Shown here piece after piece: positions 36,906 through 42,082 of a DNA stretch of 64,000 bases (position 1 is its first letter; every line of letters starts with the position of its first letter). Under the pieces are notes generated by a model that worked only from the letters and a program-made list of their open reading frames with translations, was not told the DNA's origin and ran no database searches. The stretch is from Haploplasma axanthum. GTDB taxonomy: Bacteria > Bacillota_I > Bacilli_A > Acholeplasmatales > Acholeplasmataceae. Location: assembly GCF_900660745.1 (NCBI RefSeq), contig NZ_LR215048.1, positions 868,001 through 932,000 on the forward strand. The letters are read 5' to 3'. The position numbers were made by a program, and so were the translations under genes.

Positions 36906-36932
36906 TAAAAAAACTAGGAATTAACCTAGTTT
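36906..36932 (-). terminator. Terminator of the zinc operon/fur remnant
   Basis: AAACTAGG and CCTAGTTT (36911-36918, 36925-36932) form a stem around AATTAA. T-run on the minus strand. Confidence 0.82.
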
Positions 36933-37191
36933 TAACGACAATCTTTACATAGACCATAAATAGTCATTTCATGATTTGTAACAAGAAAATCATGCTCATT
37001 TTTTAATTCTTTAATAGTACTATTCATATTACAATCAATAGCAAACATAGATAAGCAATTAGTACAAACAAAATAGTGATGATGATGTCCATCGACATTT
37101 AAAAAGTAAAAACTTTTTCCATCAAAATGAAATTTGAGTAACAAATTATTTTTTTTTGAATAGGAAATTGTATTTGGTCTAATCAAAAAAG
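36932..37191 (-). pseudogene. zur: Fur/Zur-family regulator, C-terminal fragment
   Basis: This is the metal-binding and dimerisation half of a Fur-family repressor. It opens mid-protein (FLIRPNTISYSKKN) and includes the His cluster DGHHHHYFVCTNC and the closing GLCKDC, i.e. the regulatory His site and the paired CxxC structural zinc site. The DNA-binding half lies 1.8 kb away at 38968-39115, beyond an IS91-like element. A TTG near 37186 could start a fragment, but it lacks a ribosome-binding site. The Zur assignment rests on its place at the end of a zinc-transport operon. Confidence 0.85.
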
Positions 37192-37249
37192 GATATACTT
37201 AAAAAAACTCCATATTAGAAGTTTATTACAAAGTATAATATATCTTAGT

Positions 37250-37585
37250 TTATTTTAAAACGTTAAAAGGAATTAATTTTTTAAAAACATCTTTAGGAAC
37301 AAACTGCAACTTACCACATTCAGGACAGAAATCTAAAGGGAAAGCAGCCTCATTATGAAGAACATCCATAGAAAAATGTTCATAACTTAAATTTAATTCA
37401 AAGTGACAATCAAGACATTTCATTTCAATCATATCAAACAAATCAGAATTTTTAAAATAGTTATCAAAAGATAACTTAGGACCAGGGATAAAACCCTCAG
37501 CAATACCTAATTCATATTCACGATAAAGATTCTTCTTTTGTGAATTAGACAAAATAGGTTTATAAGTTTTAAAAAGTTTAGGCAT
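37250..37585 (-). CDS. Zinc-ribbon accessory protein of the IS91-like element
   Basis: A 111-aa protein of unknown function with two CxxC pairs (KCLDC near residue 62 and FCPECG near 93) that would form a zinc ribbon. The N-terminus is basic. Its start overlaps the end of the transposase gene by 8 bases, so the two are coupled. Classic IS91 carries a small orf121 upstream of its transposase; this partner is downstream and not obviously the same protein. It may help target recognition or strand handling. Confidence 0.6.
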   Translation of the reverse strand: MPKLFKTYKPILSNSQKKNLYREYELGIAEGFIPGPKLSFDNYFKNSDLFDMIEMKCLDCHFELNLSYEHFSMDVLHNEAAFPLDFCPECGKLQFVPKDVFKKLIPFNVLK

Positions 37586-38888
37586 CAGAAATATAAGCTC
37601 CTTTATTATTATTTGGTAGAAATGAAAGTTTGATATTTAAAACCATCTTGGCACCACAGCTACAAAGAAGGGGATCAAACTTAAAAGTATCTAGCAACAT
37701 TATACGCCATTTTAATCTAGATTTTAAGTAATCAATAGAAGATTTAGAAACTAATTTAGTAAAAGAGTTAGCACGAGCAGATTTATTAGCATAAAAACCA
37801 TAGTAACGAATTTGATGAAAACCCTCATCATGGATATGTCTAATTAGTCTAGAAATAAAGATATGAGGATGTTCAGTAATAACGACAGGATTATTAGGAT
37901 CATCGTGAGGAGTATAACGCCAAGAGACAGTGCTATTAGTAGAATCAAGAGATAAAATATTGGATTCAGCAATAGGAGGATGAGAAGCATATCTAGCAAT
38001 ATAATTAGCAATTTTTTTAGTGTTATAAAATTTAGTAAACTCTTTAATCCTAGGACCGTAAGTATAAAAACCGTCTTTATATTTTTTGATAATTTTAGAC
38101 CTTAAGATGTTAAATTCACGATAAAGAGAATGATTACCAAAAGCTTTGAGAACTTTAGAAGCTAAGGATAAGAATTTGAACATAAAAGTCTTTCTGAGAC
38201 GTTCGAAAGGAAAAAAATAAAGATCTTTTTTCTTGTTAAACTTATCAATAGTAGCTTCAGCAATTAAAACATGAATATGAGGATGAAGATTTAAACTACG
38301 GCCCGAAGTATGAAGGAAAGCAACGAAGCCAAGCCTAGCATCATCTGCTAGATCTTTTTTAGAAAGATCTAAAGAAAAATGAAGAGAATCATTAACAGAT
38401 TTAAATAAACAATCAAATAAAGGTCGACACTTCCAAAAGAAAGGTCTTAAATCAAAGGGAAGAGAAAAAACAAAATGACGATGAGGAACAGAAATAAGTT
38501 TCTTTTGAATTTCCAAAGAGCGAGAATCACGATATTTATGGCCACAAGAGGAACAAAATCTAGAATGACAAGATAAACCAGATAAATGATAATGATCACA
38601 TTTAGAGCACTCATAGAAAAGATAGCCCTTAGATAAATTTCTACAATCAATCATAGATTCAACATTTTTAATAATAGAAGAACGAAGTTTATCTTGATGA
38701 AGTAATTTAAAAGAAGGCCAAAAAGCGCGAAAAATCTCCTTTATAGAGACGTGATTAGAGTTTAGGGAACGAACATGCTCAAGATTAGAAAGTCTCGTTA
38801 ATTCATTCTCATAAACAGTATTACCATTTTTAGCAGCAGTGGCTAGTAAATCTTTATAAAGATTTTTAACATAAACATTAGTATCCAT
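37578..38888 (-). CDS. IS91-family HUH transposase
   Basis: A 436-aa rolling-circle transposase. The N-terminal zinc-binding region has YECSKC, CHSRFCSSCGHKYRD near residues 92-122. The HUH metal motif is HPHIHVLI near 202. The tyrosine motif YIARYASHPP near 293 supplies the two Tyr that cleave and join single strands. The gene is intact, so the element could be active. It is preceded by a terminator-like hairpin that would shield it from transcription entering from the zinc operon. Confidence 0.92.
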   Translation of the reverse strand: MDTNVYVKNLYKDLLATAAKNGNTVYENELTRLSNLEHVRSLNSNHVSIKEIFRAFWPSFKLLHQDKLRSSIIKNVESMIDCRNLSKGYLFYECSKCDHYHLSGLSCHSRFCSSCGHKYRDSRSLEIQKKLISVPHRHFVFSLPFDLRPFFWKCRPLFDCLFKSVNDSLHFSLDLSKKDLADDARLGFVAFLHTSGRSLNLHPHIHVLIAEATIDKFNKKKDLYFFPFERLRKTFMFKFLSLASKVLKAFGNHSLYREFNILRSKIIKKYKDGFYTYGPRIKEFTKFYNTKKIANYIARYASHPPIAESNILSLDSTNSTVSWRYTPHDDPNNPVVITEHPHIFISRLIRHIHDEGFHQIRYYGFYANKSARANSFTKLVSKSSIDYLKSRLKWRIMLLDTFKFDPLLCSCGAKMVLNIKLSFLPNNNKGAYISDA

Positions 38889-38925
38889 AGCTATATTATA
38901 AATAATAAGATATGAAAATAAAAGA

Positions 38926-38963
38926 GGCGATTAGTAATCGCCCCGAGTGAAATTTATTTCACT
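38926..38963. repeat. Two adjacent perfect hairpins at the IS91-like element end
   Basis: GGCGATT-AGT-AATCGCC (38926-38942) and AGTGAAAT-TT-ATTTCACT (38946-38963) lie at the transposase-proximal end. The second is 4 bases from the junction. Subterminal hairpins are typical of IS91 ends; the first, followed on the minus strand by a T-rich run, also looks like a terminator. Confidence 0.8.
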
Positions 38964-38967
38964 TTTT

Positions 38968-39115
38968 GTTCAAAATATTCAATTGTTCGATAAACTGTTG
39001 AAAGATTCATAGTATCCATTGGAAGAAGTTCATAAATCATTTCAGCATTTAATGGTTTTTTTGAATTTTTTAAAACATCAAAGATTGTTTGTCTCTGTTT
39101 GGTAAGTTTAATCAC
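38968..39115 (-). pseudogene. zur: Fur/Zur-family regulator, N-terminal fragment
   Basis: Starts with GTG at 39115, overlapping the permease stop (GTGATTAA), with AAGGTGG upstream. It encodes the winged helix of a Fur-family repressor: KLTKQRQTIFDVLKNSKKPL, then MNLSTVYRTIEYFE, the recognition-helix block. Native sequence ends at GAAC (38968-38971). Translation then runs into the IS91-like element and stops at 38954 after four foreign codons, giving a 53-aa peptide without metal sites or dimer domain. With the element removed the protein would be 135 aa. Confidence 0.88.
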
Positions 39116-39929
39116 GATAACCGCCACCTTTAATAAATCTCTTAATTATCATAAGAACTATTAATATTATAGCATAAACAATAACAATTGTAGAACCTGC
39201 AGGAATATCAAATTGATCAGCAACCGAAATTCCTAAAAAAACAGCAATAATAGATGATATAGAACCTATAACTAATGTTCTTTTAAAACTTGTTTTAAAC
39301 TGCATTCCAATTATAACTGGAAATATTACAAACGAAGAAATAAGTAGAGTTCCAATAGTCTTAACACCAATAGTAATTAATATTGCAGTTAAAACAGATA
39401 ATGAATAAGAAAGTAGTGTTGTCTTAACGCCTCTAAATTTCGCATATTTATAATCATAAGTCATTAATAAAAGTTTTCTATAAAATACTGTTACAAATAG
39501 AATAATTAATATAAGAATGATTATCCCCATAATGATTTCTGATAGATTAACAGTCCACATATTTCCAATTAACATACCTTCAATTGAACGATTAAATCCC
39601 GAACTTTTATGAATGATAATAAGTCCAACAGCTAATGAAACTGTTGAAATTATTCCTAGTGCAGCATCACCGTTAATATTTCTTTTTTGGGATAAATATT
39701 TGACAAGAATTGAAAGAACAATCGCAAAAGGAATACTAACGAATAATGGTTCATTAACAAATAACATTCCAATAGCAAGTCCAGTAAAACTGACATGAGC
39801 AAGTCCATCAGCGATTAACGCTTGTTCATTTAAAACAAGGAAAGGGCTAATAATTGCCGCAGATAATCCGATAATAATCGCGATTAATAATGCATACCAT
39901 CCAAAACTATATTGTAAAAACTCAAACAT
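39108..39929 (-). CDS. znuB: Zinc/manganese ABC transporter permease (ZnuB/AdcB type)
   Basis: A 273-aa ABC-3 family permease with seven to eight helices. The family block SLAVGLIIIHKS and the GVKTIGTLLISSFVIFPV region are present. The start at 39929 (MFEFLQYSFGW) is preferred because GGGGG lies just upstream; it overlaps the ATPase gene by 8 bases. A longer frame upstream has no ribosome-binding site. It forms the membrane channel for the binding lipoprotein and ATPase encoded before it. Confidence 0.9.
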   Translation of the reverse strand: MFEFLQYSFGWYALLIAIIIGLSAAIISPFLVLNEQALIADGLAHVSFTGLAIGMLFVNEPLFVSIPFAIVLSILVKYLSQKRNINGDAALGIISTVSLAVGLIIIHKSSGFNRSIEGMLIGNMWTVNLSEIIMGIIILILIILFVTVFYRKLLLMTYDYKYAKFRGVKTTLLSYSLSVLTAILITIGVKTIGTLLISSFVIFPVIIGMQFKTSFKRTLVIGSISSIIAVFLGISVADQFDIPAGSTIVIVYAIILIVLMIIKRFIKGGGYRD

Positions 39930-40587
39930 GTTTATGCCCCCTATGTTCAAATTCTTTAAACTCTTTTGATTCACCAAAAAATTTAACTTCTTGATCAATA
40001 TATAGAATTAAACTATTATCTTTTAATGTATCACTTAAATCATGTGTAACATTAATGATAGTCATATTTCTTTCTTTTTGTAAACTATTTAAGAAAAGAT
40101 AAAAACCTTCTCTAAATTCTGGATCTAGCGCACTAGTTGGTTCATCAAGAATTAGTAAATCAGGATTACTAATTAGGGCTCTAATAATATAGACACGTTG
40201 TTGCTGCCCGCCTGATAAGATAGACATGTTCTCATTAATTAAATGGGAAATATTCATAATTTCTAGCCATTTTTTAATTTCGTTATCAGTAGATTCTTTT
40301 TCTATTTTATCTAGTCCACCATAAATAACTTCTTTAACAGTTATTGGAAAGTTTTTCTTCGTTTGAAGTTTTTGTGGTAAATAACCAACTTTCTTTTCAT
40401 TGATTGTTATTGAACCAGAAGAAGGAGTAGTTAAATTAGTAAGAACTTCAATTAAAGTGGTTTTTCCACTTCCGTTTGGTCCGATAACATTTAAAAAATC
40501 ACCTTTTTTTAGCGAAAAAGAAACATCTTTCAATGCTTCATATTTTCCGAATCTAACAGTTAAATTGCATACAGTAACACTATCCAT
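39922..40587 (-). CDS. znuC: Zinc ABC transporter ATPase (ZnuC/AdcC type)
   Basis: A 221-aa ATPase: Walker A GPNGSGKTT near residue 36, signature LSGGQQQR near 122, Walker B LLILDEPTSALD and the switch His in VTHDLSD. The C-terminal tail ends in the His-rich EHRGHKHV, common in zinc-related ATPases. It begins 2 bp after the lipoprotein gene and overlaps the permease gene. Operon order and neighbours support metal import. Confidence 0.92.
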   Translation of the reverse strand: MDSVTVCNLTVRFGKYEALKDVSFSLKKGDFLNVIGPNGSGKTTLIEVLTNLTTPSSGSITINEKKVGYLPQKLQTKKNFPITVKEVIYGGLDKIEKESTDNEIKKWLEIMNISHLINENMSILSGGQQQRVYIIRALISNPDLLILDEPTSALDPEFREGFYLFLNSLQKERNMTIINVTHDLSDTLKDNSLILYIDQEVKFFGESKEFKEFEHRGHKHV

Positions 40588-40589
40588 TA

Positions 40590-41483
40590 TTAATCACCTA
40601 ACGCTCTTTTAATATTTTGATAATTTCTTTCTAATAAATCATAATAAGTAACTTTATTGTTAAAATCATCTAAAGTAACATTATGATAACCATGTAATTC
40701 TAAAAGATTTAATTCATAGTTTTCATTACTTAATTCACGCATTATTGTTTTGGCAACACGAGGTTCTTTCAATTCTTCAGTAAATAAGTAATGTGTATTA
40801 GCAGTTTTTACTTCATTAAGTAAAGTGCTAATTTGACTTGCACTTAAATCAGCATCTGGTTTACTAGTTGCACTTAAAGCAATTACATTCAAATCATAAT
40901 GAGAAGAAAATGATTGCATTGCATTGTGTCCAGCAAAATAAATTGTTGGCTTATTTTTTGTTTTAAAATAGTTGATGATAATTGTATCTAATTCAGTTAA
41001 TTTATTAAGATATGTATTAGCATTATTTTCATAAAACTCTTTATTAGAAGGATCAATTTCAATAATTGTATCTCTAATTCCTTGAACAATCTTTATATAA
41101 TTATTAGTACCAGACCAGTAATGTAGATCTTCATGTGTGTTGTTTGATTTTGCTATTAATGAACTAACATTTAATGTTATTGTTTCATTACTAGTAATAT
41201 TTTTAACGTTATTATTTAACCAAGCATCCATTTCATAACTTGTAAATAAAAATAGTTTACTTTTTTTAATTTCTGTTATTTGTTTACTCGTAGGTTTAAA
41301 ATCATGAGCTTCATCGCCAGGTTTTGTTAGTAGTGAGACTGATAGTTTATCACCACTTATAATTCTTGTAGCATCATACTGTGGATACATAGTAGCAACT
41401 ATATCGGCATTTTTATTTTTTGTACATGATATTAAAACTATACTTAGAATAAGTGTTATAGTAATAAATAATATTTTTTTCAT
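40590..41483 (-). CDS. znuA: Zinc-binding lipoprotein (ZnuA/AdcA type)
   Basis: A 297-aa cluster A-I substrate-binding protein. The lipobox LISC puts the lipidated Cys at residue 20. The metal ligands should be His60 in GDEAHDFKPT, a His in the short HEDLHYW loop, the His of FAGHNAM and the Asp in SKPDADLS. The acidic/His-rich loop usual in ZnuA is very short. Manganese-binding PsaA-like proteins are close relatives, so Zn over Mn is inferred from the loop and the Fur-type regulator. It is the first gene of the operon and has a regulated-looking promoter. Confidence 0.88.
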   Translation of the reverse strand: MKKILFITITLILSIVLISCTKNKNADIVATMYPQYDATRIISGDKLSVSLLTKPGDEAHDFKPTSKQITEIKKSKLFLFTSYEMDAWLNNNVKNITSNETITLNVSSLIAKSNNTHEDLHYWSGTNNYIKIVQGIRDTIIEIDPSNKEFYENNANTYLNKLTELDTIIINYFKTKNKPTIYFAGHNAMQSFSSHYDLNVIALSATSKPDADLSASQISTLLNEVKTANTHYLFTEELKEPRVAKTIMRELSNENYELNLLELHGYHNVTLDDFNNKVTYYDLLERNYQNIKRALGD

Positions 41484-41514: not shown

Positions 41515-41556
41515 ATTATATCACTAATATAATTGTTTTGCAAATTGTTCGCAAAA
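41515..41556 (-). promoter_or_regulatory. Zinc-operon promoter with palindromic candidate Zur box
   Basis: On the minus strand TTGCAA (41538-41543), 17 bp, then TATAAT (41515-41520). The -35 sits inside TTTTGCAAA-TTG-TTCGCAAAA (41536-41556), a 9-3-9 inverted repeat with one mismatch. A Fur-family dimer bound there would block the promoter. Confidence 0.65.
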
Positions 41557-41566
41557 ATAAAAAGAT

Positions 41567-41595
41567 TTGGAAAAGAACTTGAAAAGTGGTATAAT
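41567..41595 (+). promoter_or_regulatory. Promoter of the rimP-nusA-infB operon
   Basis: TTGGAA (41567-41572), 17-bp spacer, then TG-G-TATAAT (-10 at 41590-41595), an extended -10. Confidence 0.75.
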
Positions 41596-41644
41596 ATACA
41601 ATTGATATGAGAATCATATAATTTAATATTTAGTGAGGTGTATT

Positions 41645-42082
41645 GTGAAAATAGAAAGTATTAAAGATAAGTTGAATAAAATTCTTGAAGATTATGAATT
41701 CACAATTTATAGTGTTAAGACTAAGAAAGAGTTTGGAGAAAAAATATTAGAAATCTTGTTAAAAGGTAAAAATATTACAACTGATGTCTTAGAACAAATC
41801 CACACTAAACTATTTGAGAATTTAGAAGATGATTTGGATGATGATTATTTCTTAGAATTATCATCAGTAGGTGCAGAATATCCACTTAATTCATTAGATG
41901 AAGTAATGGAGCATGTTGATGGATATGTATATGTTGAGACAAAAGATTTTAAGGGCGTTGGATTATTACTTGAAGTTAATAATAATGAACTAGTAATTAA
42001 GTATAATCAAAAAGGCCAATTTAGAAAAATAAAAATTGAATATGACGATGTTCTAAATATTAGAACGAGTGTCAAAATATAA
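41645..42082 (+). CDS. rimP: Ribosome maturation factor RimP
   Basis: A 145-aa factor that helps assemble the 30S subunit. The N-terminal alpha/beta domain contains DDYFLELSSVGAEYPL (normally L-E-V-S-S-P-G), followed by a small SH3-like barrel with VEVKNELVIKY-type strands. The Pro of S-P-G is replaced by Val, a mild oddity. The GTG at 41645 is chosen because GAGGTG lies about 6 bases upstream. It is first in the conserved rimP-nusA-ylxR-infB-rbfA cluster. Confidence 0.9.
   Translation: MKIESIKDKLNKILEDYEFTIYSVKTKKEFGEKILEILLKGKNITTDVLEQIHTKLFENLEDDLDDDYFLELSSVGAEYPLNSLDEVMEHVDGYVYVETKDFKGVGLLLEVNNNELVIKYNQKGQFRKIKIEYDDVLNIRTSVKI

Follow-up and report, generated by a model that had tools for sequence, protein, structure and literature searches.

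A palindrome before znuA in Haploplasma axanthum is a probable Zur operator beside an interrupted zur gene

In the 64,000-nucleotide stretch of Haploplasma axanthum DNA analysed here (the window), a palindrome, TTTTGCAAATTGTTCGCAAAA, lies at positions 41536–41556 between znuA on the minus strand and rimP on the plus strand, and it raises the question of whether the organism keeps the operator of a Fur-family zinc repressor (Zur) whose own gene is broken. An earlier note on this DNA had proposed such an orphaned operator; the letters and coordinates proved exact, and the palindrome covers the -35 element of znuA. Our analysis indicated that the palindrome is very probably the Zur operator of a znuABC-zur operon, with the repressor gene split and the promoters of znuA and of a second target, rpmE2, probably constitutively on. 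The features involved are collected in Table 1.

Table 1. Features at the znuA and rpmE2 loci (window positions; the last two lines give positions in the genome)
Feature	Position	Strand	Evidence or detail
zur 3′ fragment, metal-binding and dimerisation half, two CxxC	36932..37148	-	PF01475 positions 54-121, 28.8 bits
IS91-family element that splits zur; left end placed to within a few bases (T run)	37149..38970	-	
IS91-family transposase gene	37578..38888	-	Pfam Y2_Tnp and Zn_Tnp_IS91
zur 5′ fragment, DNA-binding half	38971..39115	-	PF01475 positions 4-55, 32.7 bits
znuB, permease	39108..39998	-	Pfam ABC-3, 178.3 bits
znuC, ATPase	39922..40587	-	Pfam ABC_tran; NCBIfam best AztA, ZnuC, below curated cut-offs
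znuA, zinc-binding lipoprotein of ABC importer	40590..41483	-	Pfam ZnuA, 184.1 bits
znuA promoter-like pair: -35 TTGCAA 41543-41538 (inside box), 17-bp spacer, -10 TATAAT 41520-41515, extended TG	41515..41543	-	consensus scan only
Putative Zur box, 17-bp core 8-1-8, TTGCGAACAATTTGCAA on znuA strand	41538..41554	-	22.5 bits, matrix from 30 other loci
rimP, divergent neighbour	41633..42082	+	Pfam RimP_N
Box pair before rpmE2	1815624 and 1815658		34 bp apart; 22.6 and 26.2 bits
rpmE2, type B L31, 85 aa, no cysteine	1815357-1815611		type B L31 model 104.2 bits, cut-off 86

The operon's own regulator, which the earlier note had described as broken, is split by an IS91-family insertion, so that the matches to PF01475 fall into two pieces with the element between them. 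The best alignment of the 5′ fragment was with the Zur of the relative G015 (31/47 residues identical), and the 3′ fragment grouped in the tree with the Zur of two genus-mates, G001 and G002, in which the gene is uninterrupted (support 99/98; 41/69 and 40/69 residues identical). The element was recognized by NF033538 (transpos_IS91) at 241.4 bits against a cut-off of 125, and it is present in five copies in the genome; the near identity of the four others (99.8–99.95% of DNA) suggests that it was recently active. A 111-aa ORF with cysteine pairs, which had no Pfam match, also lies inside the element (window 37250–37585).

The palindrome had been read as a 9-3-9 repeat suiting a Fur-family dimer, with the arms TTTTGCAAA and TTCGCAAAA around TTG complementary at 8 of 9 positions; on the znuA strand the 21 bp read TTTTGCGAACAATTTGCAAAA, and the right half supplies the -35 TTGCAA. 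The Fur-like symmetry was retained in our analysis, but in another register: the better reading is the 17-bp 8-1-8 palindrome at 41538–41554, a divergent copy of TTGCRAATNATTYGCAA, whose Fur-like 7-1-7 unit is TGCAAATTGTTCGCA (Fur-family 7-1-7 form, TGCRAATNATTYGCA). The 7-1-7 inverted repeat is among the Zur-box forms named in PMC6103462. The 9-3-9 register was rejected, as a genome-wide search with up to three mismatches returned 18 places versus 27 for the reversed control; its single exact copy in the genome is the znuA palindrome.

The box overlaps the predicted promoter of the zinc importer operon. TTGCAA-17-TATAAT was the best promoter-like pair before znuA (10/12 to consensus), and a weaker pair (41554–41526, 9/12) also overlaps the palindrome. 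The scan as a whole found 32 pairs compared with a shuffle mean of 28.1, and because it finds about as many pairs as shuffles do, the promoter call alone is weak. A shared role of the palindrome at the divergent rimP promoter was rejected, the rimP pair (41567–41595) having no overlap with the box. A second inverted repeat, AATTGATATGA / TCATATAATTT (window 41600–41624, 9/11 pairs), lies in the rimP leader right after its -10; none was seen by eye upstream of znuA in the genus-mate G002.

Of 5000 base shuffles of the 149-bp gap between znuA and rimP, 11.4% contained a 9-3-9 dyad paired at 8 or more of its 9 positions, and 1.3% contained one that also had two or more G-C pairs. The dyad on its own is only moderately surprising and is weak evidence against chance; the box exceeds chance because it is conserved before znuA and has a second target.

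Conservation was analysed in the genome under study and 60 relatives, of which 42 of 61 gave ZnuA matches; the best 30 of these 42 loci (own and 29 relatives) were taken, and one named Acholeplasmataceae contig provided a 31st, the scan of named genomes having given only two loci. TTGCRAATNATTYGCAA with at most two mismatches was found upstream of znuA in 31/31 loci (11 exact, 14 with one and 6 with two mismatches), a test that is partly circular because the consensus was derived from the same upstream regions, which does not apply to the genome-wide placement. Dinucleotide shuffles of the same 31 regions (200 rounds) gave a mean of 0.1/31 and a maximum of 1. Beyond the 30 loci, boxes near znuA were also present in G035, G034 and G011, from the 12 remaining genomes with ZnuA. 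Sites with at most one mismatch occurred in 13 of 14 chosen relatives' genomes, with 22 of the 25 places before znuA; of the other three, G027 has two, both within ORFs, and G002 has one, which precedes a thioredoxin-like gene. This last site, an exact box between rpsD and the thioredoxin-like gene (L107:1310–1326), is a candidate further Zur target.

Scoring with a matrix from 48 boxes in 30 loci, own locus excluded, gave 22.5 bits for the znuA box; the second-highest score in the window was 5.7 bits. The best boxes of the 30 relatives span 20.8–27.9 bits and only three score below the own box, which is weak but within the relatives' range. A TATAAT-like hexamer was located at offset 24 from the box centre in 24/31 loci (25 in the own genome, 14 in G002). 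In 16/31 znuA loci the -10 stands between two boxes with a spacing of exactly 43 bp, and 5 of 160 genomes of the order carry two exact boxes at this spacing; only one box is present before znuA in the own genome and in both genus-mates. In 27/29 relatives znuABC is followed immediately by an uninterrupted Fur-family gene, and the 25 linked proteins placed on the tree each have two or more CxxC. Of the two remaining relatives, G015 has its Zur-clade gene elsewhere, with no strong box within the region fetched, and in G058 the contig ends. The expectation that the site would be kept upstream of znuA in relatives with an intact regulator was thus borne out.

A genome-wide search for the motif near zinc-related or ribosomal-protein paralogue genes, which the earlier note had suggested, pointed to rpmE2 as a second locus. 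The own genome contains TTGCRAATNATTYGCAA with no more than one mismatch at 4 places, where about 0.27 would be expected given the base composition of the window, and three of these fall in two zinc-related promoters, those of znuA and rpmE2; the fourth (724614), inside an ORF, scored 15.6 bits, the highest of the other candidates scored in the genome. Places with exactly two mismatches were at chance level (5 versus 5.5 expected): three lie inside ORFs, 1789517 is intergenic with 7.4 bits, and 298465 scored 12.5 bits. The 89 places with up to three mismatches, versus 64 for the control, are mostly chance.

rpmE2, encoding a zinc-free L31 paralogue, is a classic Zur target; the other L31 of this genome (69811–70035) has two CxxC. 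Control of C- paralogues of L31 by Zur is established elsewhere (PMC3087516, PMC6103462). The box pair, rpmE2, a histidine-rich lipoprotein gene and an ArsR/SmtB-type regulator gene stand in a row (L157, G000:C1:1811619–1815674), a possible zinc-scavenging operon; the lipoprotein (1145 aa, with repeats, 42 histidines and one cysteine) had no specific family match. Among 88 genomes of the family, only the own genome matches twice with L31, and twelve relatives have type B L31 alone. Because a scan of 58 L31 loci found the box at none of the 57 others, the rpmE2 switch seems peculiar to the own genome within the family, the link coming from one genome. The lost regulon that the shared motif was to define does gain rpmE2, followed by the lipoprotein gene, but it appears to comprise only two promoters in this genome.

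In 395 genomes of the class, exact WTGCRAATNATTYGCAW was found in 47 versus 6 for the reversed control. The gene at the first box in 24 newly fetched loci was ZnuA-like in 16 (calls made by eye and from ZnuA match coordinates), CobW-family in 1, Fur-family in 3, and other or nothing in 4. The CobW-family case is an exact box in G015 (L215, G015:C1:648315) before a gene for a CobW/COG0523-family GTPase, a usual Zur target elsewhere; like the own rpmE2 pair, it places the same site at another presumably zinc-responsive gene. At a Clostridia znuA locus (L051), the box lies 14 bp before the ATG, and the seven ORFs listed for this locus include no Fur gene.

In the Fur-family tree, the 25 znu-linked proteins, the unlinked one of G015 and the own 3′ fragment formed one clade (support 99/99). 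The 1.88-Mb single contig contains only two other PF01475 matches (E ≤ 0.001), both intact, without CxxC and outside the Zur clade: 1794093–1794485 on a long branch of unsure placement, and 1342163–1342513 in a separate clade with paralogues of six relatives that have an intact Zur. The latter type (L002, G000:C1:1342163–1342513, with L161, L165 and L169–L171) is a CxxC-less paralogue that the family has retained; in the own genome it lies beside or near nadD/nadE. A metal island (L158, G000:C1:1788000–1800000) holds two P-type ATPases, Crp-type and ArsR-type regulators, a CxxC-less Fur-family protein and transposases. The ArsR/SmtB-type gene behind rpmE2 (1811619–1811918) matched the metalloregulator model NF033788 at 88.5 bits (cut-off 55), and the last third of its protein carries D-x-H-x10-H-x2-E, the pattern of the zinc site of SmtB/CzrA.

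One of these three proteins might use the box, which would then not be orphaned; we consider this unlikely. Fur-family sites share an AATNATT core, which makes cross-binding possible, and the ArsR-type protein has the presumed zinc site and passes its model; however, neither Fur paralogue has CxxC or belongs to the Zur clade, the second has counterparts in relatives that keep an intact Zur, and ArsR/SmtB operators are of a different, 12-2-12 type. It is likewise quite improbable that another sensor, such as the ArsR/SmtB-type protein or the Fur paralogue encoded close to the metal ATPases, took over the Zur boxes; if true, control of zinc uptake and zinc-free L31 would have passed to a regulator from another family or clade. 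We give very little credence to a split zur that works in part, whether through a 5′ fragment that binds DNA alone or through cells with an uninterrupted zur in the population. The fragment retains the recognition helix region (NLSTVYR), and the insertion may be young, its copies being nearly identical, but Fur-family proteins bind as dimers and dimerise for DNA binding through the part now cut off, and the assembly's single contig carries the insertion. It is very improbable that the palindrome arose by chance or serves an unrelated regulator as operator: such a dyad is not rare in the AT-rich gap and manganese regulators also use TTTGC-type half-sites, but the box recurs in all 31 znuA loci, with an adjacent Fur-family gene in 27/29 relatives, and again as a pair at rpmE2.

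If the palindrome is a Zur operator, zinc-loaded Zur in the relatives, a dimeric Fur-family repressor encoded by the fourth gene of the operon, would sit over the -35 when zinc is plentiful and, where two boxes are present, would block both sides of the -10; when zinc is scarce, Zur would leave the box and the znuA promoter would open. The rpmE2 promoter is flanked by the same boxes, so production of zinc-free L31 and the histidine-rich lipoprotein would start alongside that of the importer. The operators of the own genome are still good, but zur is split and the contig has no other Zur-clade gene, so that znuABC and rpmE2-lipoprotein are probably expressed constitutively from both promoters. 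The idea of an operator without its repressor agrees with this gene content; binding, zinc response and the loss of repression in this strain are inferred. The strain looks like a natural zur mutant.

The box is of a known Zur-box type with an already published motif, here extended to the Acholeplasma-like lineage. According to PMC8457756, the Clostridium thermocellum protein Fur_1691 gave by DAP-seq (in vitro) the motif TGCAAATcATTTGCA in front of an operon for a zinc ABC transporter, and three other species conserve it; the authors did not test for a zinc response. The present site resembles it as a pseudo-palindrome before a zinc ABC operon with a Fur-family protein, but it occurs in another class, is slightly divergent (TGCAAATTGTTCGCA), and has a split repressor gene. 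Among the boxes given in PMC545781, the Gram-positive TAAATCGTAATNATTACGATTTA is likewise a palindrome around AATNATT before genes for zinc uptake and C- ribosomal paralogues, with the half-site TCGTAAT compared with TGCRAAT here, and the Desulfovibrio ATGCAACNNNGTTGCAT is likewise palindromic over 17 bp, has TGCAA in its outer half-sites and precedes znuABC-zur, with the centre AACNNNGTT compared with AATNATT here; the own box, AACAATT in one orientation, stands between both. The double Zur boxes over -35 and -10 described for S. coelicolor znuA and B. subtilis yciC (PMC6103462) resemble the pairs at 16/31 znuA loci (43 bp apart) and own rpmE2 (34 bp apart), unlike the single-box znuA promoters of H. 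axanthum and both genus-mates. An Acholeplasma Zur box was not found in the papers searched; the main text of the promoter-based network paper PMC5138195 names no Zur, and its supplement S4 (28 predicted sites) may include one.

The noteworthy part is the interrupted repressor beside intact operators. The analysis assigns a Zur regulon to the Acholeplasma-like lineage and offers a natural zur-interrupted strain in which the zinc-free ribosomal protein may be made constantly. It makes testable what permanent zinc uptake and permanent L31 swapping cost, and how fast operators decay after the loss of their repressor.
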